From positions 1-42,833 of the forward strand of contig JAMPDH010000012.1 of NCBI GenBank assembly GCA_023665725.1: a DNA stretch of 42,833 nucleotides, in the 5' to 3' direction. This DNA comes from Clostridium sp. (GTDB taxonomy: Bacteria; Bacillota_I; Bacilli_A; RF39; UBA660). Of the stretch, positions 4,220-41,356 are shown piece by piece (position 1 is the stretch's first letter; each line of letters begins with the position of its first letter). A model generated the notes under the pieces. It was given only the letters and a program-made list of their open reading frames with translations. It did not search any database and was not told the origin of the DNA. The position numbers were made by a program, and so were the translations under genes.

Positions 4220-4750
4220 ATGAAAATAATTTTACTTAGTGGTAAAGCGCGTAATGGAAAAGATACAACTGCTTTAATGTTAAAGGAAATATATGAGAAA
4301 GATAATAAAAAGGTTATAATTTTATCTTATTCATTTTATTTAAAAGAATATGCTAAAAAGATAAGTAATTGGGACGGAAAAGAGGAAAACAAACCTAGAG
4401 ATTTATTACAACAGCTTGGAACTGAAATAATAAGAAATAATATTGATGAGTTATTTTTTGTAAAAAGAATGATAGAGGATATAAAAGTTTATTCTTATTA
4501 TTTTGATATTATTATAATATCAGATGTAAGACTTAAAAATGAAATAGTATGGATAAAAAGCAGTTTTGAAAATGTTTACCCAATTAGAATTATAAGACCA
4601 AATTTTAATAATGGTTTATCAGAAGAACAAAAAAGGCATATAACTGAAGTGGATTTAGATGATTATGATTTCAAATATAAAATAGTTAATGATAAGACTT
4701 TAGTAGAATTAAATAAAAAAGTAGAAGAGTTAGTTGAGGTATTAAAATGA
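4220..4750 (+). CDS. Deoxynucleoside monophosphate kinase-like P-loop protein
   Basis: A 176-residue P-loop kinase with Walker A GKARNGKDT (8-16), in the style of the phage T4-type dNMP kinases and related CMP/dephospho-CoA kinase-like proteins. DVRLKNEIVWI in the middle is the conserved Asp-Arg segment of that group. RDLLQQLGTEIIRN resembles the substrate lid. It probably phosphorylates a (deoxy)nucleoside monophosphate, but the exact substrate is not readable. AGGAGG precedes the ATG. The TGA stop overlaps the alaS start as ATGA (4747-4750), showing translational coupling, and shows that TGA is a real stop in this organism. Confidence 0.72.
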   Translation: MKIILLSGKARNGKDTTALMLKEIYEKDNKKVIILSYSFYLKEYAKKISNWDGKEENKPRDLLQQLGTEIIRNNIDELFFVKRMIEDIKVYSYYFDIIIISDVRLKNEIVWIKSSFENVYPIRIIRPNFNNGLSEEQKRHITEVDLDDYDFKYKIVNDKTLVELNKKVEELVEVLK

Positions 4751-6495
4751 ATATAAGAGAGTTATATATAGACTTTTTTGTAGGTAAAGGTCATAAACAA
4801 ATTCCAAGTGCACCAGTAGTTCCAGAAAACGATCCATCTGTTTTATTTAATACGGCTGGAATGCAACAATTGGTTCCATATTTAATGGGCGAAAAACATC
4901 CATACGGAACTAGACTTTGTGATTATCAAAAGTGTATAAGAACAAATGATTTAGACGAGGTTGGGGATAAAACGCATCATACTTTTTTTGAAATGCTTGG
5001 TAATTGGTCATTAGGAGACTATTTTAAAGAGGAAAGTATAAAATATAGTTTTGAATTTTTAACTAAAGTGTTGAATATACCAGTAAACAGACTTGCTGTA
5101 ACTGTATTTAAAGGTACGGATAGTATCCCAAAAGATGAATTATCAGCAAGTATATGGAAAAGTTTGGGAATAAGTGAGGAAAAAATAGCATATTTAGATA
5201 ATGATAATTTTTGGATAGCAGGCGAAACTGGGCCATGTGGCTCTGATACTGAGATATTTTATTTTAGAAGTAATGATATAATTCCAGATAAATTTGATCC
5301 TAATGATGATAGATGGGTAGAAATTTGGAATAATGTATTTATGGAATTTTATAAAAATAGTGATGGAAGTATAACGGAACTTTCTAAAAAAAATGTAGAT
5401 ACTGGTATGGGATTAGAAAGAATTGTAGCAGTAATGGAAGGCGTAACAGATAACTATGAAAGCTCAATTTGGAAAGATATAATTTCTTTGATAGAAAAAA
5501 TATCTGGTAAAAGTTATAATGAAGATAAAAAAAGTATGAGGATTATTGCTGATCATATAAGAACAGCTGTATTTATATCAGCAGATTATGCAGGAATTAA
5601 ACCTTCTAATACTGATCAAGGATATATACTTAGAAGATTAATAAGAAGGGCTATTAGGTATGCTAAAAAGTTAGATATTGATATTAGTAGTAACTGGGAA
5701 GAGGTTATCGCTACTAAAATAATAAATAAGTATTCTAAATATTATAAAGAAGTAGAAGAAAATAAAAATATAGTTTTAGAAGTATTAAGAAATGAAAAAT
5801 TAAAGTTTAATAGAACTCTTGAAAAAGGTTTAAAAGAATTTGAAAAAATGGCCAGTAGTTTAGAAAATAAATTTTTAAATAAAGATTTGGCTTTTAAACT
5901 TTATGATACATATGGATTTCCTATTGAATTAACACTAGAACTTTCAAATGAACTAGGAATAACAGTTGATGTAGATGGATTTAATGAAAAATTTAAAGCT
6001 CATCAAGAATTATCTAGGGCAGGTTCTACTGCTAAATTTAAAGGTGGCCTTTCTAGCACAAGTGATATTAATATTAAATATCATACAGCAACACATTTAC
6101 TTAATGCTGCTTTAAAACACGTATTAGGTTCTCATGTTCATCAAAAAGGAAGTAATATTACTGAGGAAAGAATGAGATTTGATTTTTCACATGATAATAA
6201 AATGACTCCAGAGGAGATAAAAGAAACAGAAGAATTAGTAAATAAATATATACAAATGTCTTTACCAGTTACAAAAGAGGAAATGGATAAAGAAAGTGCG
6301 ATTAAATCAGGGGCGGAATGTATGTTTATAGATAGGTATCCTGATATAGTAACAGTATATTCCATAGGTGATGTTTCAAAAGAACTTTGTGGTGGTCCAC
6401 ATGTAGAAAATACTAATACACTTGGGCATTTTAAAATAATAAAAGAAGAAGCTTCTTCAGCCGGTGTAAGAAGAATAAAGGCAATACTAGAGTAG
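4747..6495 (+). CDS. alaS: Short alanyl-tRNA synthetase lacking the beta-barrel and C-Ala regions
   Basis: Charges tRNA-Ala. The class II catalytic core is complete (PENDPSVLFNTAGMQQ at 26-41, THHTFFEMLGNWSLGDYF around 76-93, VDTGMGLERI, DHIRTAVF). The editing site is present with HTATH (446-450) and CGGPH (548-552), which together bind Zn. At 582 residues it is far shorter than the usual 850-880. It stops right after AGVRRIKAILE, so the coiled coil/DHHA1 and C-Ala domain are missing. The segment between the tRNA-binding helices and HTATH is also collapsed: FKGGLSSTSD replaces the usual beta-barrel with its ESGGQ motif. From memory this compact layout matches AlaRS of Patescibacteria (CPR). 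It is the third gene of its operon, with the stop codon in a terminator. Confidence 0.95.
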   Translation: MNIRELYIDFFVGKGHKQIPSAPVVPENDPSVLFNTAGMQQLVPYLMGEKHPYGTRLCDYQKCIRTNDLDEVGDKTHHTFFEMLGNWSLGDYFKEESIKYSFEFLTKVLNIPVNRLAVTVFKGTDSIPKDELSASIWKSLGISEEKIAYLDNDNFWIAGETGPCGSDTEIFYFRSNDIIPDKFDPNDDRWVEIWNNVFMEFYKNSDGSITELSKKNVDTGMGLERIVAVMEGVTDNYESSIWKDIISLIEKISGKSYNEDKKSMRIIADHIRTAVFISADYAGIKPSNTDQGYILRRLIRRAIRYAKKLDIDISSNWEEVIATKIINKYSKYYKEVEENKNIVLEVLRNEKLKFNRTLEKGLKEFEKMASSLENKFLNKDLAFKLYDTYGFPIELTLELSNELGITVDVDGFNEKFKAHQELSRAGSTAKFKGGLSSTSDINIKYHTATHLLNAALKHVLGSHVHQKGSNITEERMRFDFSHDNKMTPEEIKETEELVNKYIQMSLPVTKEEMDKESAIKSGAECMFIDRYPDIVTVYSIGDVSKELCGGPHVENTNTLGHFKIIKEEASSAGVRRIKAILE

Positions 6496-6972: not shown

Positions 6973-8292
6973 GTGAATATAAAAACTGATTCTAGGAAAA
7001 TAGAAAAAGGAGATACTTTTGTTGCGATAAAGTATAATAACGATGGACATGATTATATAGAGGATGCAATAAAAAATGGAGCTTCTAAAATTGTATGTAA
7101 TAGAGGACTTTATAGTGTTGAAACATTACTTGTAAAAGATACACATGAGTATCTTGTTAATTATTTAAAAGACAATTATTATGATGAAATTAAAGATTTA
7201 AAATTAATTGCTTTAACAGGGACAAATGGTAAGACAACTACTTGTTATTTAATATGGCAAATGTTAAATACGTTAGGAATAAAATGTGGTTATATAGGAA
7301 CTATTGGATTTTATATTGATGATAAAGTAAGGGATTTAAATAATACGACTCCGGATATATTAGATATATATGAAATGTTGCTTGAATGCAAACAGAAAAG
7401 CTGTCAATATGTAGTAATGGAAGCTAGTAGTCATGCACTTTCATTAGATAGATTAAAGAGTTTATTATTTGATTATGCTATATTTACAAATCTTACTCAA
7501 GATCATTTAGATTATCATAAGACAATGCAAAATTATGCTCTTTGTAAACAAAAATTATTTAATATGTTAAAAGAGGATGGTAAAGCTATAGTAAATATAG
7601 ATGATAGTTATAAAGATTACTTTTTAGTGGAAAACAAAACTATAACATATGGATTTAGTGAAAGTGATTATAATATATCAGATTTAAGTATCAGTAAAAA
7701 TGGAACAACATTTAAGGTAAATAATGAAACATACGAAACAAAATTAATAGGTAAATATAATGTTTATAATAGCGCTATATGTGTAATATTAATGAAGGAA
7801 CTTGGTTTAAATAATATTATTAATAAATTAAGTGCTCCTAAAGGAAGAATGCAAAGAATAGAATACAAAGATAATTCTATAGTAATAGATTATGCTCATA
7901 CTCCTGATGCAGTTAGTAAGGTAATTACTGCTGCTCGCGAAATAGGATATAATAATATATATACAATAATTGGATGTGGTGGAAATAGGGATAAAACAAA
8001 AAGAAGTATAATGGGGCGTACTGCAAGTGATTTATCCGATTATGTTATATTAACAAGTGATAATCCAAGAGATGAGAATCCTGTTGATATAGTAAATGAT
8101 ATGATAGATGGAATAGATAAAGAAAATTACGAAATAATAGTAAATAGGGAAAAAGCTATAATAAGGGGTATACAATTATTAGATAAAAGTGATATACTAT
8201 TAATATTAGGAAAAGGACACGAAGAGTATCAAATAATTAATGGTATAAAGTATGATTTTTCTGATTTAGAAATAGTTAATAGAAATATATAG
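6973..8292 (+). CDS. murE: UDP-MurNAc-tripeptide synthetase MurE, predicted meso-DAP-adding
   Basis: Adds the third residue to UDP-MurNAc-L-Ala-D-Glu in the cytoplasm. The three Mur-ligase domains are in order: N-terminal UDP-binding domain with TDSRKIEKGDTFVA (5-18), the central ATPase with TGTNGKTT (82-89), SSHAL and the lysine to be carbamylated in NYALCKQKLF, and the C-terminal domain with TSDNPRDENP (361-370). The DNPR motif is the one known from meso-diaminopimelate-adding MurE; Lys-adding enzymes usually have DNPA-like versions. So an mDAP wall is inferred. Length 439 is slightly short because of small loops. The start is GTG 6973. The gene is followed 8 bp later by mraY. Confidence 0.95.
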   Translation: MNIKTDSRKIEKGDTFVAIKYNNDGHDYIEDAIKNGASKIVCNRGLYSVETLLVKDTHEYLVNYLKDNYYDEIKDLKLIALTGTNGKTTTCYLIWQMLNTLGIKCGYIGTIGFYIDDKVRDLNNTTPDILDIYEMLLECKQKSCQYVVMEASSHALSLDRLKSLLFDYAIFTNLTQDHLDYHKTMQNYALCKQKLFNMLKEDGKAIVNIDDSYKDYFLVENKTITYGFSESDYNISDLSISKNGTTFKVNNETYETKLIGKYNVYNSAICVILMKELGLNNIINKLSAPKGRMQRIEYKDNSIVIDYAHTPDAVSKVITAAREIGYNNIYTIIGCGGNRDKTKRSIMGRTASDLSDYVILTSDNPRDENPVDIVNDMIDGIDKENYEIIVNREKAIIRGIQLLDKSDILLILGKGHEEYQIINGIKYDFSDLEIVNRNI

Positions 8293-9457: not shown

Positions 9458-10792
9458 ATGGATAAATATAACGAGTTTAGTAATAAATATGATACTTTTA
9501 TATATGAAGGATTTGATATAGAAAATTTAGATAAAAATATGAAAATAACATTTCATTATAATGTTTTAAATCTAACTACTTATAATCCAACTTTAGAAAT
9601 GAAAAAATTTGAAATAAATGATTTTACTAAATATTTAATATTCAATATAGGAATGGTTGAATTAATTAGTTATTGGAAAGCAACATGTAGTAAAAATGTA
9701 ATAATAAAGGCTGGATATTTAGATGAAGATCAAATAAAATTTTTTAAAAAACTTTATTTTTATGGACTAGGTGAACTATTTTTTACTAATGGTATAACAG
9801 TAAATATAGATGATTTCATGAATATAAAATGTGATTGTAGTAAAGAAAATATAGAAATACCTTGTAAAACATATACTGGAAATTTAATACCTATAGGTGG
9901 TGGGAAAGATTCTAATGTAACTTTGGAGCTTTTAAAAGATGATTATAATAATAATGATTGTTTTATAATAAATCCAAAACAAGTTACTTTAGAATGTGCT
10001 TATACTGCTGGATATAAAGATAATAAAATTATAACAGTTAAAAGAACTATAGATAAGAATTTAATTGAACTTAATAAACAAGGTTTTATAAATGGACACA
10101 CCCCTTTTTCTGCATTAGTAGCATTTATTTCATTTTTAAATGCATATATATTAGGAAAAAAATATATAGTTTTATCCAATGAAGCAAGTGCGAATGAGTC
10201 AAATGTTAGTAATACTAAGATAAATCACCAATATTCTAAAACTTATGAATTTGAAAATGATTTTAATAGTTATGTAAAAAAATATTTTAAAGTTGATATA
10301 AAATATTTTAGTTTACTTAGACCATTAAGTGAGTATCAAATCGGAATGTTATTTTCTAAATATGAAAAATATCATAGTATATTTAAAAGTTGTAATGTAG
10401 GTAGTAAAACTGAACCTTGGAAATGGTGTTGTAATTGCCCAAAATGTTTATTTGTTTATATAATACTAAGTCCATTTTTATATAAAGAAAAATTAGTTAA
10501 TATATTTGGGGAAGATTTATATGAAAGAGAGGATTTACTTGATACATTTATAGAATTAACTGGATATGGTGATACAAAACCATTTGAATGTGTAGGAACT
10601 TATAAAGAGGTTAGATATGCATTAAGTAAGGTTATAATAAATAATAATAATTTACCATATTTACTTAAATATTATAAAGATAATTATGAGTTATCAGATA
10701 TGAATGAAAATTTAGAAAACGAATATAATGAGGAAAATAATTTAGATGAGTACTTTGAAAAAATTATAAAAAAAGAATTAAATACTTTATAG
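9458..10792 (+). CDS. murL: MurL-type UDP-MurNAc-L-Ala-L-Glu epimerase
   Basis: MurL inverts the glutamate of UDP-MurNAc-L-Ala-L-Glu to the D form, an alternative to glutamate racemase. The 444-residue protein shows the conserved blocks I know for this family: GGGKDSNVTLE (147-157, a PP-loop-like ATP site), the NGHTPFSAL block (212-220), SNEASA (240-245), INHQYSKTYEFE (255-266), FSLLRPLSEYQIG (284-296), SCNVGS (311-316), the CCNCPKC cluster (324-330) and KPFECVG (374-380). Its place between mraY and murD supports a wall role. The last 30 residues are an Asn/Glu-rich tail, part of which is repeated downstream of dinD. Start ATG 9458 with AGGTGAT. Confidence 0.87.
   Translation: MDKYNEFSNKYDTFIYEGFDIENLDKNMKITFHYNVLNLTTYNPTLEMKKFEINDFTKYLIFNIGMVELISYWKATCSKNVIIKAGYLDEDQIKFFKKLYFYGLGELFFTNGITVNIDDFMNIKCDCSKENIEIPCKTYTGNLIPIGGGKDSNVTLELLKDDYNNNDCFIINPKQVTLECAYTAGYKDNKIITVKRTIDKNLIELNKQGFINGHTPFSALVAFISFLNAYILGKKYIVLSNEASANESNVSNTKINHQYSKTYEFENDFNSYVKKYFKVDIKYFSLLRPLSEYQIGMLFSKYEKYHSIFKSCNVGSKTEPWKWCCNCPKCLFVYIILSPFLYKEKLVNIFGEDLYEREDLLDTFIELTGYGDTKPFECVGTYKEVRYALSKVIINNNNLPYLLKYYKDNYELSDMNENLENEYNEENNLDEYFEKIIKKELNTL
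10700..10747 (+). repeat. 48-bp direct repeat, copy 1 (murL 3' end)
   Basis: Encodes MNENLENEYNEENNLD in the murL tail. Identical over 48 bp to 11785-11832 beyond dinD. The two tails after the repeat are diverged but still alignable at protein level (EYFEKIIKKEL against TKFEFVLKNEL). Confidence 0.97.
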
Positions 10793-10811
10793 AAGATAGA
10801 TATCGAAATTA

Positions 10812-10820
10812 TGGTATTAT
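10812..10820 (+). promoter_or_regulatory. Candidate extended -10 promoter of dinD
   Basis: TGG-TATTAT at 10812-10820 with no recognisable -35. I see no GAAC-N4-GTTC type LexA box between murL and dinD. Confidence 0.4.
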
Positions 10821-10874
10821 TATAACAATTGATTTTAAAGGTTATATAAAAATTAAAATATCGGGAGGTAATGG

Positions 10875-11711
10875 ATGAACGAAATTGAAAAGTATAACGA
10901 AACAACATTTGAAGAAATTAAGCATATAGATGAATTTGGTTATGAATATTGGGAAGCAAGAGAATTAATGTTAGCACTTGAGTATAAAAGATGGGATAAG
11001 TTTAATAATGTAATTGATAATGCTAAAATTGCGTGTGATAAAAGTAATTATTTAATTGAAAATCATTTTTCCCAAGCGGGAAAAATGATAAATATAGCAA
11101 ATGGTGCTAAAAGAAAAATAAATGATTATAGATTAAGTAGATATGCATGCTATCTAATTGTTCAAAATGCTGATCCTAGAAAAGAAAATGTAGCATTAGG
11201 TCAAACTTATTTTGCTATTCAGACTAGAAAGCAAGAGCTAACTGAAAAAGAATATAGTATGCTTTCTGAAGATGAAAAGAGATTTTATCAAAGAAAACTA
11301 ACTAAAAAGGGTAATTATTCTTTAAATAGAACTGCTATAAAATCTGGAGTAAAAAATTTAGATAAATTTCATAATTATGGGTATAAAGGCTTATATAACG
11401 GCGAAACGGCAGATGATATAGCAAAAAGAAAAAAATTAAGATATCGTGAAGATATTTTGGATAATATGGGAAGTGTTGAGTTAGCAGCTAATTTATTCAG
11501 AATAACTCAAACAGAACAAAAATTAATAAATGATAATATACAAAGTGAGAGTGATGCAAATAAAACTCACTATACTATTGGAAAAAATATAAGAGAAGTT
11601 ATTGCTAAAAATGGTGGAACTATGCCAGAAAAATTACCAACTCCTAAAAAGAGTTTAAAAGAATTAGAAAAAGAAAAGAAAAATAATCTTATAAGAGTTA
11701 GTCAAAAATGA
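10875..11711 (+). CDS. dinD: DNA damage-inducible protein D (DinD) homologue
   Basis: A full-length 278-residue DinD-like protein. Opening FEEIKHIDEFGYEYWEAREL is the BRO/DinD N-terminal motif. It is followed by YRLSRYACYLIVQNADPRKE, ALGQTYFAIQTRKQEL, NYGYKGLYNGETADDI, ILDNMGSVELAANLFRITQTE and the terminal GGTMPEKLPTPKKSLKELE, all typical. In E. coli DinD restrains RecA filament activity in the SOS response. Families of this type move by horizontal transfer and sit in defence or phage contexts. The start is ATG 10875 with GGGAGG at 10863-10868; the ATG at 10871 runs into a stop. It interrupts the murL-murD pair and is flanked by a 48-bp repeat, so it is best read as an inserted cassette. Confidence 0.93.
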   Translation: MNEIEKYNETTFEEIKHIDEFGYEYWEARELMLALEYKRWDKFNNVIDNAKIACDKSNYLIENHFSQAGKMINIANGAKRKINDYRLSRYACYLIVQNADPRKENVALGQTYFAIQTRKQELTEKEYSMLSEDEKRFYQRKLTKKGNYSLNRTAIKSGVKNLDKFHNYGYKGLYNGETADDIAKRKKLRYREDILDNMGSVELAANLFRITQTEQKLINDNIQSESDANKTHYTIGKNIREVIAKNGGTMPEKLPTPKKSLKELEKEKKNNLIRVSQK

Positions 11712-31350: not shown

Positions 31351-31402
31351 GTGAATAAATGATATTCACACTAAATAACTCCTTTTTGGAGTTATTTTCT
31401 TT
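31351..31402 (+). terminator. Tandem hairpins ending the nfeD operon
   Basis: First hairpin GTGAATA (31351-31357) / TATTCAC (31363-31369) without a T run. Then a strong terminator: AATAACTCC (31374-31382), TTTTT loop, GGAGTTATT (31388-31396), T-rich tail. Confidence 0.88.
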
Positions 31403-31446
31403 TAAAAATATAAAAAGTAGTGTATAATTATTTATGGTGAATAAAA

Positions 31447-32184
31447 GTGATAAAACATATAATGGACATAGATGTTAATTATATAAGATATGGTAATTCA
31501 AAAGGTAAATCTGTTATCTTGTTACATGGTTGGGGACAGAATATACAAATGATGCAACCAATCGGGGATAATTTGTCTAGTGAATTTGATGTAACTATAG
31601 TAGATTTACCGGGATTTGGAATGAGTGAAGAACCTAAATATGTATGGGAAGTTATAGATTATGTAAATTGCATTCATAAATTACTTGGTGAGTTAAATAT
31701 AGCTAGACCAATAATGATAGGTCATTCATTCGGAGGAAAAATTACATTATTATATTCAAGTATATATGATACAGAAAAAATAGTATTATTTGGAAGTCCA
31801 TATACTAAAGAGGTAAAAAAAGTTGGAATGAAGACAAAAGTACTAAAATCTTTAAAAAAGGTTCCAGGGATAAATAAGTTAGAAGGCTTTGCAAAAAAAC
31901 ATATGGGCTCAACTGATTATAGACAAGCATCTACTATGATGAGAAATGTTTTAGTTCAAACTGTTAATCTTGATATAACAGAAGAAGTAAAAAAAATAAA
32001 TGTGCCAACGCTTCTTATATGGGGAACAAATGATAGTCAGGTTTCAATAGAACTTGCAAGGGAATTAGAAAAATTAATAAAAGATTGTGGACTTATTGAA
32101 TATGAAGGGTGCACACATTATGCATATTTAGAAAGATTAGAGCAAACAATAAATGTGCTTAGCAGTTTTTTGAGAGGAGAGTAG
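31447..32184 (+). CDS. Alpha/beta-hydrolase
   Basis: A 245-residue alpha/beta-hydrolase: oxyanion region LLHGWG (25-30), nucleophile elbow GHSFGG (92-97, Ser94), acid Asp196 (WGTNDSQV) and His224 (GCTHYAYLE). Esterase or lipase-like; the substrate cannot be read. The GTG at 31447 with GGTGA at 31436-31440 is the best start; TATAAT lies at 31423-31428. murF follows 1 bp after the stop, so it is the head of a hydrolase-murF-ddl operon and may act on wall precursors or lipids (position only). Confidence 0.87.
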   Translation: MIKHIMDIDVNYIRYGNSKGKSVILLHGWGQNIQMMQPIGDNLSSEFDVTIVDLPGFGMSEEPKYVWEVIDYVNCIHKLLGELNIARPIMIGHSFGGKITLLYSSIYDTEKIVLFGSPYTKEVKKVGMKTKVLKSLKKVPGINKLEGFAKKHMGSTDYRQASTMMRNVLVQTVNLDITEEVKKINVPTLLIWGTNDSQVSIELARELEKLIKDCGLIEYEGCTHYAYLERLEQTINVLSSFLRGE

Positions 32185-32185
32185 T

Positions 32186-33775
32186 ATGATTTATTTTTTA
32201 ATAAGTATAATACCGATGTTTATTTATATGCTAATTAAATCTACAAAAGGACTACATTCTTTGCAACAAAATTGGTATAACGATGGAAATAGATATATAA
32301 AGTGGATTAACAATAATCTAAGTAAGGTATTTTTATCATTTGATATGTTATTTTTAATAGTAATAGCAGTTGGTTTTTTAGGTAATTATATATTACAGTA
32401 TGTATTATGGATAATATTATATATAATTTCTATATTTGTAATAATAAGAAAAAAAGAACAAGTAAAACTTCCTTTAAAATATACAAGTAGGATAAAAAGA
32501 TTATTAGTAACAATTATACTTATATATTTAATACCTATATTTTTAATTTGTATATTTTATAATGAATATTCATTAAACATATATTATATTATTTTAGGAA
32601 TTTTAGTATATTTTAGTTATTATATAGTAATTTTAGCAAATATTATAAATAAACCAATTGAAAAAATAGTTTACTTCTATTATAAAAATATGGCTAGTAA
32701 GAAACTTTCACAATTAAGTAATATGCAAGTTGTTGGAATAACAGGTAGTTACGGAAAAACAAGTAGTAAAAATATACTATCAAATATTTTAAATGTAAAA
32801 TATAATGCTCTACCAACTCCCAAAAATTTTAATACATTATATGGCTTGATGAGGACAATAAATGAAAACTTAGATAAGTTTACAGATATATTTATTGCAG
32901 AAATGGGAGCATTTAGACGTGGGGAAATAAAAAAATTGTGTAATTTTGTACATCCTAAATATGGCATTATTACAACAATCGGAGAGGCACATTTAGAAAC
33001 ATTTGGTAGTCGTGATAATATATGCATTGGTAAGTTTGAATTAGTAGAGTCGTTACCAAGTGACGGAGTAGCAATTTTAAACGGGGATGATCCTTATCAA
33101 TTAAATTATAAAATAAAAAATAATTGTAAAGTATTATGGATAGGAATAAATAATAAAGATGTAGATTTATATGCATCAGATATAAAAATAACATCTAATG
33201 GTATGCAGTTTAAGGCCCATTTTAAAGGTGATAAAAATGTATATGAATTTGAAACTAAGTTATTGGGTAAAGCTAATATATATAATATACTTGCAGGAAT
33301 AATTCTAGGAAAATATTTAAATTTAAGCATTGAAGAATTGCAAAGAGCAGTTAAAGGTGTAATTCCTGTCGAACATAGATTAGAACTTAAATATTTTGGT
33401 AATATTAATATAATAGATGATGCGTATAATTCAAATCCAGTAGGATCTAAAATGGCATTAGATGTTTTAAACTTAATGAATGGTAAGAAAATAATTGTAA
33501 CACCTGGGATGATAGAACTAGGGGACAAACAATATGAAGTAAATAAACAATTCGGAAAATATATAAGTGAAGTATGCGATGAGGTAATATTGGTAGGTGA
33601 ACAGCAAACTAAACCTATATATGATGGATTAGTTGAAGAAAAATATGATACAAAAAAAATACATGTATTAAATGATGTTAAAAAGGCATTTCCACTTATT
33701 CAATCTTTAGCTGAAGTAAATACTTATGTGCTTTTAGAAAACGATTTGCCTGATATATTTAATGAGAAGGAGTAG
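32186..33775 (+). CDS. murF: MurF-like D-Ala-D-Ala-adding ligase with N-terminal membrane domain
   Basis: MurF joins D-Ala-D-Ala to UDP-MurNAc-tripeptide. This 529-residue form starts with about 155 residues of membrane helices (about 1-17, 52-88, 106-124, 131-151). It then enters the Mur ATPase domain directly at GITGSYGKTSSK (184-195), followed by TPKNFNTLYGL, GEAHLETFGSRDNI, HRLELK and DDAYNSNPVGSKMALDVL in the C-terminal domain. The usual soluble first domain that holds the UDP-MurNAc part is missing. Such membrane-fused Mur ligases occur in some Bacilli (memory). Immediately followed by ddl, which makes its D-Ala-D-Ala substrate, so the activity call is well supported. Confidence 0.85.
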   Translation: MIYFLISIIPMFIYMLIKSTKGLHSLQQNWYNDGNRYIKWINNNLSKVFLSFDMLFLIVIAVGFLGNYILQYVLWIILYIISIFVIIRKKEQVKLPLKYTSRIKRLLVTIILIYLIPIFLICIFYNEYSLNIYYIILGILVYFSYYIVILANIINKPIEKIVYFYYKNMASKKLSQLSNMQVVGITGSYGKTSSKNILSNILNVKYNALPTPKNFNTLYGLMRTINENLDKFTDIFIAEMGAFRRGEIKKLCNFVHPKYGIITTIGEAHLETFGSRDNICIGKFELVESLPSDGVAILNGDDPYQLNYKIKNNCKVLWIGINNKDVDLYASDIKITSNGMQFKAHFKGDKNVYEFETKLLGKANIYNILAGIILGKYLNLSIEELQRAVKGVIPVEHRLELKYFGNINIIDDAYNSNPVGSKMALDVLNLMNGKKIIVTPGMIELGDKQYEVNKQFGKYISEVCDEVILVGEQQTKPIYDGLVEEKYDTKKIHVLNDVKKAFPLIQSLAEVNTYVLLENDLPDIFNEKE

Positions 33776-33780
33776 TAATA

Positions 33781-34980
33781 ATGAGAATTAAAGTTGGTGT
33801 AATTTTTGGTGGAGAAACTGTTGAACATGAGGTAAGTATTATATCGGCAGTACAAGCTATGAATAATATGGATCAGGAAAAATATGAAATAATTCCTATA
33901 TATATAACAAAGGATAGAATTTGGTATACGGGACATATGCTTATGGATATAGATGTTTATAAAGATTTTGAAACATTAAAAAGATATGCAAAAAGAGTAA
34001 CTTTATGTAAAAGAGAAGATGGGTTTTATCTAGTTAATACATCAGGAATATTAAGAAAAGATGTAAGTTCAATTGATATAGCATTCCCTATTGTTCATGG
34101 AAATAATGTAGAAGATGGTTCATTACAGGGATATTTAGATACTATTGGTATTCCTTATGTAGGAAGCAAGGTATTAGGTTCATCTTTAGGACAAGATAAA
34201 GTAATTATGAAACAAATATTTTCATCAATTGGTTTAAATGTAGTTCCATATACTTGGTTTTTTGATACAGAATATCAAGTAAATAATAGTACAATACTTG
34301 AAAATATAGATTCATTAGGTTATCCAGTTATTGTAAAACCTGCCCATTTAGGAAGTAGTGTAGGAATTACATTTGTACAAAGTAAGGAAGATATAGATAG
34401 TGCAATTAATGAAGCCATAAAATATGATACTAAAATTGTTGTAGAAAAGGCTATAACTGATATGAAAGAAGTTAATTGTGCAGTTTTAGGTAACTATTCT
34501 AATCAGACAACAAGTGCTATAGAGGAAGTTATTGGTTCTAAGAATTTCTTAACTTATGCAGATAAGTATATGGGTTCTTCAAAATCAAAAGGTGGAGCTA
34601 AATTTTCTAAGTTTAATAAGTTTGGAAAAGGAATGGTAAGTGCTAAAAGAAAAATACCTGCAGATATAACAGATAATCAAAAAGAAGAAATTGAAGAGTA
34701 TTCTAAAAAAGCCTTTAAAGCTTTGAATTTAAGCGGTGTATGTAGAATTGATTATATGATAGATACAAAACAAAATAAAATTTATATTAATGAACCTAAT
34801 ACTATTCCAGGATCTTTATCATATTACTTATGGGAAGCTAATGGAAAAGAGTATAGTGAATTACTAAATGATATGATTACTTTAGCAATTAAGGAGTATA
34901 AAGAAAAGGAAAGAAAAACATATTCTTTTGATACTAATATTTTAAGTAATTATAATGGTGTAAAAGGTTTAAAAAAATAG
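33781..34980 (+). CDS. ddl: D-alanine-D-alanine ligase
   Basis: Makes D-Ala-D-Ala for MurF. An ATP-grasp enzyme of 399 residues: N-terminal VGVIFGGETVEHEVSIISA, HGNNVEDGSLQGYLDTIGIPYVGS, SSLGQDKVIMKQIF, central PVIVKPAHLGSSVGI and the metal-binding C-terminal NEPNTIPGSLSYYLWE. It is somewhat longer than average, with a Lys/Ser/Gly-rich insert (SSKSKGGAKFSKFNKFGKG) in the omega-loop region that covers the active site. AAGGAG precedes the ATG 5 bp after murF. No plus-strand terminator follows clearly. Confidence 0.93.
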   Translation: MRIKVGVIFGGETVEHEVSIISAVQAMNNMDQEKYEIIPIYITKDRIWYTGHMLMDIDVYKDFETLKRYAKRVTLCKREDGFYLVNTSGILRKDVSSIDIAFPIVHGNNVEDGSLQGYLDTIGIPYVGSKVLGSSLGQDKVIMKQIFSSIGLNVVPYTWFFDTEYQVNNSTILENIDSLGYPVIVKPAHLGSSVGITFVQSKEDIDSAINEAIKYDTKIVVEKAITDMKEVNCAVLGNYSNQTTSAIEEVIGSKNFLTYADKYMGSSKSKGGAKFSKFNKFGKGMVSAKRKIPADITDNQKEEIEEYSKKAFKALNLSGVCRIDYMIDTKQNKIYINEPNTIPGSLSYYLWEANGKEYSELLNDMITLAIKEYKEKERKTYSFDTNILSNYNGVKGLKK

Positions 34981-35188: not shown

Positions 35189-35220
35189 AACCTGTGAATA
35201 ATTATTTGCAGGTTTTATTT
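35189..35220 (+). terminator. Terminator of tRNA-Lys
   Basis: AACCTG (35189-35194) with CAGGTT (35209-35214), inner AATAA/TTATT, T-rich tail. Confidence 0.75.
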
Positions 35221-37679: not shown

Positions 37680-37729
37680 AAAGCAACTAATAGGTGGAAG
37701 AATATGCAATTAAAAGGGGGAATTATAAG

Positions 37730-40700
37730 ATGAAAAAGGGTTTAAATATTTTATTAGCTATATCAATATTAATATTGCAGTTTGTACCTATAACTACTGT
37801 TGATATTGTAAATGGTAAAACAGATGAAACAAAGAGAAATGAAAATAGTTATTGGAGCGAAGATAATATGCCCATATTTTATGGTGCAACGAAAATAACT
37901 TTAGAAATAGGTAGTGTTAGCGAATTTAATTTTAACGATACTAGATTTAGAATTTTTGCTAAAGACTTTGAAGATGGTGATCTAACAACTAAAATAACAC
38001 ATACAGGAAGTGTTGATGTTAATAAAGTAGGAACATATAATATAACTTATAGAGTTACAGATTCCCATAATAATACATCAGTTCTTAATGTACCAGTTAT
38101 TGTAAAAGACCATGATATTAAAGATGGGAATCCATCTTCTACTTCTAACGATGGAAACTCTAATGATACAAATAAAGAAGAAAAAGAACAAGAGAAAATT
38201 GAAAGCATTTCAGAAAATGAAATTCAAGTTCAAAGTACAGAAATTAGTGAATTATCTGATGATTTAAAGCAAGAGATAAAAGATAATGAAGAAGATATAA
38301 GTAAAATTGAGGGAACAGATGAAATTGATTCTAAGCAAGTTGATGAAACAGTAAAAGAATTGTCTAGTGAAAGTGAATCTAAACAAAATATTGACAATGA
38401 ATCTACAACAGAAGAAAAAGATACATATAAAATCAATGTAGAAAGAACATTATATACTATTCCATCTGTTTGGAATATGGATATGGTAGGTACTAATAGG
38501 AACAACTATGGAGATAGGCAAATACTAGGAATTTATATGCCAGCAAACACTACAATTAAAGCAAGGATATTATCTGCAACAAATAATATAACTGTTAGTT
38601 TTCTTGCTAATGATTCGGCTGTTGAAAGTTCAATGACTTTAAAAACAAATGGAGAATGGGTTGAACTAAAAAATATAAAGAATGATACTTCATATGATTC
38701 AGTTCCATTATTTACATCTTCTGTTATGAAAAAGGGAGAAAATATACATAAAGTATTTAAAGTAGAATTAGAATATGATAGTTCTGTAAAAGAATTAAAC
38801 TATTATCACCAAAATGATAATGAAATAGAATTTAGAAATAAGTGGAATAATGAAAAAAATACATATGGTATTATAGAAAATGAAGTTTTAAATGTAGTAG
38901 TACCATATAAGGATATAAATAAATTAACAAACTATTATTCAAAGGGATTTACTTCATTGGATCAATTTCTAGAGTATTGGCAAAAAGTAGTAGATAGAAT
39001 GGATGAAATAATGGGTCTCGATTTAAATCCTGTAAATTTAACAGATCAAAATGTTAGAACTAAATATCTAGTAAAAGCCAATATTCATGGTGTAGGGGCA
39101 GCATATTATTCTGGAAATCATGTTGGTATACATAATTCAAGTGTAGCTTCATTTTTCGAAATGAATTGGGGTGGTTTACATGAATTTGCTCATGGTTATC
39201 AAGGATCATTTGGAAAAGGACAAATGTCTTTAGGAGAAGTTTCTAATAATATAATAGGCCATTATATACAAGTTGATAAAAGTATATATTTTCATTCAGG
39301 AGATTGGCTTGGAAGCTTACCTATTATAGAGGAAAATAAAAATAAAGAAAGATTTGATGGTAAAACATTCCAAGAAACTCAATTATCAACTAGACTATAT
39401 GCTCTTATTAACTTATTTGACAGTTTAGAGGGTGCAGATACATATACTAAGATGTTTAAATGGTATAGAAGTGCTATAAATGAAGGTAAATCTATGACTA
39501 ATCAAGATGCTTATGTATTATCTATTGCTGATATTTATGGAGTTAATATTATACCTTATATGGAGGATTGGCGTCTTGTAATATCTGATTCAGTTAAAAA
39601 TGAGATATATGATAAAAATTATCCTATGCTTAGTATAGTAAAGGATACTGTAAGTTCTGATAATTTAAATAAAATTATGAGTGGTGAAAATTTAAATAGG
39701 AAATATTCATTAGTTACAAATGATATTTTATCAAAATATAATATAAATGGAAGTTTAAAAATTAATGTTGAAATAGACAATATAGATTATATAAAAGGAA
39801 ATATAATTAGGGTAAATTCTGAGGATAAAACTATTAAAACAATAAAAATAGATGATAAAGTAATAGATGGTAATACAATTAAAATAGCAGATTTACCAGT
39901 CGGTACTTATTATATACAAATGCCAATAGTTAATGGATATTCGCAAGGATATTTATATACTCAAATTAAGGAATCAGAAGATAGTGTTTATACTTATAAG
40001 TATGAAAAACAAGAAAATCAAATTTTTGAATATGTTAATATTAATATAAAAGGGTATACTTATGATACCAAAGGATTTATATTAAGTTTTTCAGATAATT
40101 ATAAAAAAGTATTATTAAGTCCAGGTCAGGCTGGTATGAGCGGATCTGAATATGTAAGAATTTATGATGATAAAAATAATTTATTGTTTGAAGATGCTGT
40201 TAGTAAAAATGCAAATGGAAAATACTTTAACTTTGATAAAGGTAATCAAACATTGGATATAAAACCGGGTTATGTAATAGAAATTAATTATCCAAATAAA
40301 TATGCAAGTAAGGTTCAATTTATAAGTAGTTTAACAGGGAAAAATTTGTCTGGATATTCAATGACTAATCAAACAACGAGATATATAATTATGGAAAATG
40401 GTATTAGAAAAGAAGAAACTAGTGAAAGTGAAGCAAATGATATTGCATATTCTAATATAAAGCCTATACTTGTAAATATAATTGAAACTTATATGAAAAA
40501 GGCAACGGAAGATAGATTAAGTAATAAATGGGTAGATTTTATGGAAAAACAATATGTGTTAAATGCCTATAATAACTTAAAAGATGAAGATAAAACTTCA
40601 TATATAGGTTTCATTAATTCTATTAAAAGTGGAGGAGCTCCAAATATTCAAGTAGTTGGAAAATTAGAATATGAAATTGGTGAAAATATTGATTTATATT

Positions 40701-41356
40701 CTCTCATTAAAGCAACAGATAATGAGGATGGGGAAATATTAATTAATAAAGAATCTACAACAATTGAAACAAGTTTAAATACAAAAAAAGCTGGTAGTTA
40801 TAATGTTATATATAAAGTATTAGATTCGAATGGAAATATATCTACATGTGTATTAAAAATAGTAATAAAAGGTATAGAAGAAGAAAAAAAAGAACAAGTT
40901 GAAATTACTAAAAATGATGAAACTCTAATACCATCAAAACCTAGTGTTGTAAAAGATAATATAAGTAAAGTAGATAAAGAAAATACATCTAATAGTACTA
41001 AATTAGATAATAATGAAAAAGTAGAAGAAGATAAGATAAATAATGAAACTAATAATGAACAAGAAGATAAAATAGATAATGAAATTAATAATGAACAAGA
41101 AGATAAAATAGATAATGAAACTAATAATGAACAAGAAGATAAAATAGATAATGAAACTAATAATGAACAAGAAGATAAAATAGATAATAATATTAATAAT
41201 GAAGAAAATACTAAACAAGAAGAATCTATTAAAAATGAATTAACTGATTTTGAAAAATATGAAAAAAGTGAAAATTCATTCGCACTTATCGGAATTGTTT
41301 CTACATGTATACTAATTATACTTGTTTGCATAGTTTTAAAATTTGATAAAAATTAA
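37730..41356 (+). CDS. Large surface M60-like (enhancin/mucinase-type) metalloprotease
   Basis: A 1208-residue surface protein. Order: signal peptide (1-22); Ig-like DUF5011-type domain (about 47-125); acidic Ser/Glu-rich linker; M60-like module (about 230-650) with its N-terminal jelly-roll-like part and the gluzincin site HEFAH (484-488) plus Glu503; linker domains; a second DUF5011-type domain (about 971-1048); a 12-residue tandem repeat; and a C-terminal membrane helix (FALIGIVSTCILIILVCIV) with a short Lys tail. M60 proteases from gut microbes cut O-glycosylated mucins, so a host-mucus role is inferred. There is no LPXTG, so it is anchored by the helix. AAGGGGG sets the start at ATG 37730. 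Own promoter and terminator. Confidence 0.92.
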   Translation: MKKGLNILLAISILILQFVPITTVDIVNGKTDETKRNENSYWSEDNMPIFYGATKITLEIGSVSEFNFNDTRFRIFAKDFEDGDLTTKITHTGSVDVNKVGTYNITYRVTDSHNNTSVLNVPVIVKDHDIKDGNPSSTSNDGNSNDTNKEEKEQEKIESISENEIQVQSTEISELSDDLKQEIKDNEEDISKIEGTDEIDSKQVDETVKELSSESESKQNIDNESTTEEKDTYKINVERTLYTIPSVWNMDMVGTNRNNYGDRQILGIYMPANTTIKARILSATNNITVSFLANDSAVESSMTLKTNGEWVELKNIKNDTSYDSVPLFTSSVMKKGENIHKVFKVELEYDSSVKELNYYHQNDNEIEFRNKWNNEKNTYGIIENEVLNVVVPYKDINKLTNYYSKGFTSLDQFLEYWQKVVDRMDEIMGLDLNPVNLTDQNVRTKYLVKANIHGVGAAYYSGNHVGIHNSSVASFFEMNWGGLHEFAHGYQGSFGKGQMSLGEVSNNIIGHYIQVDKSIYFHSGDWLGSLPIIEENKNKERFDGKTFQETQLSTRLYALINLFDSLEGADTYTKMFKWYRSAINEGKSMTNQDAYVLSIADIYGVNIIPYMEDWRLVISDSVKNEIYDKNYPMLSIVKDTVSSDNLNKIMSGENLNRKYSLVTNDILSKYNINGSLKINVEIDNIDYIKGNIIRVNSEDKTIKTIKIDDKVIDGNTIKIADLPVGTYYIQMPIVNGYSQGYLYTQIKESEDSVYTYKYEKQENQIFEYVNINIKGYTYDTKGFILSFSDNYKKVLLSPGQAGMSGSEYVRIYDDKNNLLFEDAVSKNANGKYFNFDKGNQTLDIKPGYVIEINYPNKYASKVQFISSLTGKNLSGYSMTNQTTRYIIMENGIRKEETSESEANDIAYSNIKPILVNIIETYMKKATEDRLSNKWVDFMEKQYVLNAYNNLKDEDKTSYIGFINSIKSGGAPNIQVVGKLEYEIGENIDLYSLIKATDNEDGEILINKESTTIETSLNTKKAGSYNVIYKVLDSNGNISTCVLKIVIKGIEEEKKEQVEITKNDETLIPSKPSVVKDNISKVDKENTSNSTKLDNNEKVEEDKINNETNNEQEDKIDNEINNEQEDKIDNETNNEQEDKIDNETNNEQEDKIDNNINNEENTKQEESIKNELTDFEKYEKSENSFALIGIVSTCILIILVCIVLKFDKN
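41045..41206 (+). repeat. 36-bp in-frame tandem repeat in the M60 gene
   Basis: Four near-identical 36-bp units (41045, 41081, 41117, 41153) and a decayed fifth. Each encodes E-T/I-NNEQEDKIDN. It makes an acidic, flexible stalk just before the membrane helix. Confidence 0.95.

Follow-up and report, generated by a model that had tools for sequence, protein, structure and literature searches.

We found that a gene in the 42,833-nucleotide stretch of Clostridium sp. DNA analyzed here (the window) encodes a Mur ligase of the MurF clade in which a membrane domain replaces the UDP-binding domain. The protein, which we call TM-MurF, is a putative amide ligase of 529 amino acids encoded at 32186-33775; this gene and all other operon features described below lie on the plus strand. 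Its architecture, clade, operon and distribution, from which activity, acceptor and location are read, indicate that TM-MurF is probably a membrane-embedded MurF that carries out the MurF step at the membrane. That it ligates D-Ala-D-Ala to the stem tripeptide we infer from its occurrence as the only MurF of many genomes and from its linkage to a D-Ala-D-Ala ligase (Ddl) gene.

Domain architecture and MurF clade membership

Pfam searches identified a Mur ligase central ATPase domain in TM-MurF (Mur_ligase_M, residues 185-374, 32738-33307, E = 6e-41) and a Mur ligase C-terminal domain (Mur_ligase_C, residues 397-517, 33374-33736, E = 3e-11). The P-loop GITGSYGKTSSK occupies residues 184-195 and comes straight after the membrane helices, as the initial annotation had described. 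That annotation had also noted the loss of the domain that grips UDP, and the corresponding family (PF01225) was indeed absent from TM-MurF and from all 33 homologues scanned with Pfam; it is present in a soluble MurF encoded elsewhere in the window's genome. The nearest curated family, NCBIfam murF (TIGR01143), scored 228.6 bits on TM-MurF, below its cut-off of 288.6, and the alignment began only at profile position 63.

The N-terminal membrane domain (residues 1-180, 32186-32725) was characterized by hydropathy and by AlphaFold2. Averaging hydropathy over the family pointed to about five membrane-spanning stretches; with a simple threshold, individual homologues had three to five. The AlphaFold2 model of the whole protein, made with 75 aligned sequences, had a mean pLDDT of 92 and a pTM of 0.81, with helices at residues 2-28, 30-43, 52-63, 68-88, 101-123, 127-142 and 144-176 and the first Mur strand at 181. 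Residues 1-180 modeled alone reached a pLDDT of 96. The initial annotation had placed membrane segments over about the first 155 residues and had suggested predicting the structure of the N-terminus; the segments are as it described, and the last helix carries them on to residue 176.

The two most conserved loops of the membrane domain, basic and polar in character, were placed by hydropathy on the ligase side, which is the predicted cytosolic face. One contains the motif LHxLQQNxYN..xRYxxW (residues 24-40, 32255-32305), in which Q27 and Y31 are invariant. The other is a basic loop, KxPLxxTxRxKR (residues 94-106, 32465-32503), with T100 and R105 invariant and R102 kept in 32 of 33 sequences. 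The membrane domain is thus predicted to be polytopic, with its conserved loops facing the ligase. It belongs to no accepted Pfam family, a PDB sequence search with its profile returned a single chance match (E = 0.1), and a fold search gave no match below E = 1 in the PDB or in a viral library. A search of plasmid proteins returned partial matches only, all from residue 141 onward (soluble MurFs where annotated) and none covering 80% of the query. Dozens of independent genomes encode proteins of the same architecture, with identities of 32-76%.

The assignment to MurF made in the initial annotation was borne out by phylogeny and by fold. In a tree of 82 sequences built from the central and C-terminal domains, TM-MurF proteins were monophyletic (SH-aLRT 98), and their sister group comprised soluble MurF and X464, a small set of MurF-like proteins; MurE, MurD, MurC and MurT branched separately; support for TM-MurF plus soluble MurF was 83. 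The X464 proteins (about 460 amino acids; L207, L208, L209 and L210; SH-aLRT 100) retain an N-terminal region and score below the murF cut-off; genome G057 has two copies. All of the ten best PDB fold matches of TM-MurF were MurF. Catalytic residues common to TM-MurF and soluble MurF are T186, G187, S188, G190, K191, T192, N216, E239, H269, K283, N299, R398 and N415, and the C-terminal domain carries DDAYNSNP, a motif of the YN-x-NP type that is MurF-like and unlike that of MurE.

The positions at which TM-MurF consistently departs from soluble MurF fall into three groups. In the acceptor loop of the central domain (residues 211-220), T217 is found in 54 of 55 TM-MurF proteins where soluble MurF has N, so that NN becomes NT. 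A further group comprises G420, T439, P440, G441 and N453 (GD to PG, and H to N453). In the C-terminal pocket, which the GD to PG and H to N453 changes also affect, the KGSR of soluble MurF is replaced by the TM-MurF-specific ENDLPD (residues 518-523, 33737-33754). TM-MurF therefore resembles MurF (TIGR01143; PDB 4qf5, 3zl8 and 1gg4) in its central and C-terminal domains, P-loop, E/H/K residues, YN-x-NP motif, sister clade and top folds, and departs from it in having about five membrane helices instead of the UDP-binding domain, the NT loop, ENDLPD and a TIGR01143 score below cut-off.

A conserved operon with a divergent Ddl

TM-MurF is the middle gene of three. It is preceded by a gene for an alpha/beta hydrolase of 245 amino acids (31447-32184), the conserved first gene, in which the GxSxG nucleophile motif is kept, and followed by a conserved partner of the D-Ala-D-Ala ligase family, Ddl2 (399 amino acids, 33781-34980). 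Stop-to-start gaps are 1 base between hydrolase and TM-MurF and 5 bases between TM-MurF and Ddl2. Each junction has a Shine-Dalgarno sequence within the end of the preceding gene, which for TM-MurF is the hydrolase gene. A terminator-like stem-loop (31373-31397) followed by a promoter-like TTTAAA-16-TATAAT (31401-31428) is likely the upstream boundary of the operon, and a second terminator-like stem-loop 3' of ddl2 (35189-35214) is likely its end. These elements are consensus matches only, and promoter-like sites were no commoner than in shuffled sequence.

The triad was intact in 68 of 80 loci in the genome collection and recurred in other families, with TM-MurF identity down to about 30%. 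There are variants: in some families a Nudix hydrolase gene separates TM-MurF from Ddl, and in others a gene for a glycosyltransferase of family 4 (WecA/TagO-like) follows the operon. MurE adjoins TM-MurF at five loci (L062, L117, L127, L140 and L148), and at the last of these the genes after TM-MurF are MurE-MurE-MraY; MraY falls outside the conserved neighborhood. The hydrolase and Ddl are the conserved partners, and among the loci compared MurT-GatD was found beside TM-MurF only at L062. In Aquibacillus kalidii, the operon is directly followed by a gene for a VanX-like D-Ala-D-Ala dipeptidase, an M15 peptidase (PF01427; L166:7900-8622).

Two other readings of the neighborhood were set aside. 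An MraY-like gene after the operon at L069, L071, L075 and L076 gives no support for a second MraY; it is a family 4 glycosyltransferase (by Pfam for L071) and looks more like WecA/TagO than like a true MraY. Regarding a vancomycin-resistance operon (vanK/murF), we found no matching operon and one review only. Elsewhere in the window, an alanyl-tRNA synthetase-like open reading frame (4747-6495) encodes only 582 amino acids and apparently lacks the C-terminal domain, and a large surface protein (37694-41356) combines a motif of the HExxH type, which by eye is M60-like, with acidic tandem repeats (NNEQEDKIDNE) at its C-terminus.

Ddl2 has both Ddl domains and scores above the cut-off of NCBIfam PRK01966.1-4. 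Of 109 Ddl2 proteins, 105 retain the D-K-Y signature. All 106 parsable Ddls beside TM-MurF have PG[SCNA][LF] (PGSL in the window) and no SxxP, whereas the seven remaining Ddls, of which six adjoin soluble MurF, have PGFT...SxxP. Many Ddls adjoining TM-MurF, that of the window among them, also contain an inserted omega-loop. Ddl2 is thus like Ddl in its domains, family score and D-K-Y signature, and differs in the inserted loop and in lacking the SxxP loop seen beside soluble MurF. In DdlB, the SxxP loop helps to bind the second D-Ala. Because the acceptor loop and C-terminal pocket of TM-MurF and the loop of Ddl2 are all altered, the two proteins seem to have diverged together. The altered pocket and the lost SxxP loop also mean that the dipeptide might be something other than D-Ala-D-Ala. 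The conserved D-K-Y signature argues that the product is still D-Ala-D-Ala, as do four genomes (G030, G012, G032 and G033) that encode soluble MurF and TM-MurF and have a single Ddl each.

Genomes with and without soluble MurF

Seven Mur-domain proteins are encoded in the window's genome, which spans 1.09 Mb and is 95% complete: TM-MurF, a soluble MurF, two MurE, MurC, MurD and MurT. The two MurE genes lie in the window (6973-8292) and on contig C9 (L003:1474-2868), and one adjoins MraY; in the cell-wall cluster of the window, two unrelated genes, one DinD-like by eye, separate MraY from MurD (9458-11711). The soluble MurF (C1:4481-5710) scored 310.8 bits, over the curated murF cut-off. The initial annotation had held that a second canonical murF in the genome would suggest that the membrane protein is a different Mur-like ligase. 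Taken literally, the objection applies; it is weakened by the distribution across relatives, since in most genomes that encode TM-MurF no soluble MurF reaches the cut-off. Because soluble MurF is also present, TM-MurF is not strictly needed for the MurF step in the window's genome.

The soluble MurF of this genome forms one subclade (support 99) with those of G018, G027, G030 and G033, which also have both types. In all five, a peptidase-C26/GATase-like gene (encoding 190-228 amino acids) lies directly upstream of soluble MurF on the same strand; it was not seen beside soluble MurF in G012 or G032. Genes for a family-3 glycosidase (NagZ-like), the C26 protein and soluble MurF stand in a row in the window's genome (L082:4457-7754, contig C1). 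The pair of C26 and soluble MurF looks like a separate module, possibly related to recycling.

We determined the presence of both MurF types in 60 genomes, comprising the window's own and its relatives, most of the genomes in this and the following counts being incomplete MAGs. TM-MurF was found in 40, of which 13 also had soluble MurF over the cut-off and 27 did not. Within this group of 27, soluble MurF is partial in G021, and G043, G050 and G057 have an X464 protein. A sample of the phylum added 37 genomes with TM-MurF, four with soluble MurF over the cut-off and 33 without, two of the latter (G245 and G258) having a match of the X464 kind. These five genomes with X464-type proteins thus encode an additional soluble MurF-like ligase below the cut-off. 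One scan of the collection also returned two cultured species, Alteribacillus persepolensis and Aquibacillus kalidii; no MurF scored over the cut-off in either, TM-MurF being the best match and the next much weaker (174 and 94 bits).

TM-MurF was the sole MurF candidate found in about 56 genomes (23 + 31 + 2), including the single-contig genomes G046, G169, G223 and G289. MraY was present in all 32 of these genomes that were checked (over the cut-off in 31), D,D-transpeptidases were present in 13 of 13, and MurE with its N-domain is kept. There was one Ddl in 18 of 19 checked; it adjoins TM-MurF in most, G007 and G169 being exceptions. Across the 60 genomes, TM-MurF and soluble MurF were not significantly associated (odds ratio 0.72, p = 0.58), a consequence of the genomes in which both types are absent. 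The argument from distribution rests on the class with TM-MurF only, and not on mutual exclusivity.

Proposed acceptor of TM-MurF and possible consequences for peptidoglycan synthesis

In the mechanism that we propose, the catalytic half of TM-MurF would use ATP to activate the carboxylate of the stem tripeptide and would join it to the dipeptide made by Ddl2, as an ordinary MurF does. The membrane domain, in place of the domain that grips UDP, would confine catalysis to the cytosolic membrane surface; in the variant that we favor, its conserved basic and polar loops would recognize a lipid-linked acceptor (lipid I or II with a tripeptide). The initial annotation had likewise suggested an enzyme working at the membrane, perhaps near MraY or on a lipid-linked substrate. 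TM-MurF would be the housekeeping MurF in lineages that have no soluble MurF, and would work alongside a soluble copy in the window's genome.

The closest precedent for such an acceptor is MurT, of the lipid II isoglutaminyl synthase MurT/GatD. This peptidoglycan Mur ligase, which has no UDP-binding domain, uses lipid I and lipid II but no UDP-linked precursor as substrates, and docking put the acceptor peptide at its loop between b2 and a2 (PMC6085368). By analogy, the corresponding loop of TM-MurF may also place the acceptor peptide. MurT differs from TM-MurF in that it amidates D-Glu with ammonia from GatD and has no polytopic membrane domain; TM-MurF falls outside the MurT clade, far off in the tree, and the window's genome has its own MurT-GatD. 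Cyanophycin synthetase (CphA), PgsB/CapB and folylpolyglutamate synthase likewise use Mur central and C-terminal domains on other acceptors, with no UDP substrate. Similarity to TM-MurF is much lower for cyanophycin synthetase, whose models scored 27-41 bits compared to 229 for murF. PgsB/CapB are membrane-associated. We know of no Ddl partner for any of the three.

The domain that binds uridine has been lost, its replacement sits in the membrane and has four invariant residues (Q27, Y31, T100 and R105), and MurT provides a precedent; on these grounds we favor, with about even confidence, a tripeptide-bearing lipid I or lipid II over a UDP-linked acceptor. Less likely, in our estimate, is that TM-MurF uses the customary UDP-MurNAc-tripeptide, the membrane domain serving as an anchor or scaffold near MraY and its loops providing new contacts to the UDP-sugar. 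UDP-MurNAc-tripeptide should be made, since genomes with only TM-MurF keep a MurE with its N-domain; addition of the dipeptide before MraY calls for no change in MraY, and the TxRxKR of the basic loop could bind the pyrophosphate of UDP as well as that of a lipid. Against this stand the loss of the uridine-binding domain in every homologue scanned, the fixed N to T change in the acceptor loop, and the fact that MurT, a characterized peptidoglycan ligase that has lost the UDP domain, uses no UDP precursors (PMC6085368).

It is improbable that TM-MurF is instead a different Mur-like ligase, joining D-Ala-D-X or another amine to a specialized or non-peptidoglycan acceptor. The 13 genomes with both types, the altered C-terminal pocket together with the altered loop of Ddl2, and the Nudix or WecA/TagO-like genes in or after the operon in some lineages would fit that role. 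It is opposed by the roughly 56 genomes, with MraY where checked, that have no other MurF candidate, by MurF being the closest ligase, and by the nearly universal D-K-Y of Ddl2; the four genomes with both MurF types and one Ddl suggest that soluble MurF shares the dipeptide. Fusion of an unrelated membrane reading frame to a MurF fragment through an assembly or gene-calling error is refuted, the architecture recurring in dozens of independent assemblies that include four single-contig genomes and two cultured species, and the single-chain AlphaFold2 model being confident.

Building on the lipid-linked acceptor, we propose, a little more tentatively, that in a large group of Bacilli MraY uses UDP-MurNAc-tripeptide and that a membrane MurF with its own dedicated, co-diverged Ddl then adds the dipeptide to lipid I or II. 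In RF39 and related orders, steps of peptidoglycan synthesis are missing by KO annotation, and replacement by unidentified genes has been raised (PMC10868615). TM-MurF is a candidate for one of these steps and could explain part of this gap. The tree section of a study with Mur trees in neighboring lineages does not mention a membrane type (PMC12786226), and no description of a membrane MurF family was found in the literature searched, largely without subscription journals.

If a membrane MurF takes the place of soluble MurF, which is a target for antibacterials, the pentapeptide stem would be reached by a second route. The sequence of steps MurC-MurD-MurE-MurF-MraY is regarded as universal. 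If our proposal is correct, the textbook order of two steps is reversed in the TM-MurF lineage, with the stem completed after MraY. A membrane MurF also allows the addition of D-Ala-D-Ala downstream of MraY to be tested directly in cultured halophilic Bacillaceae.
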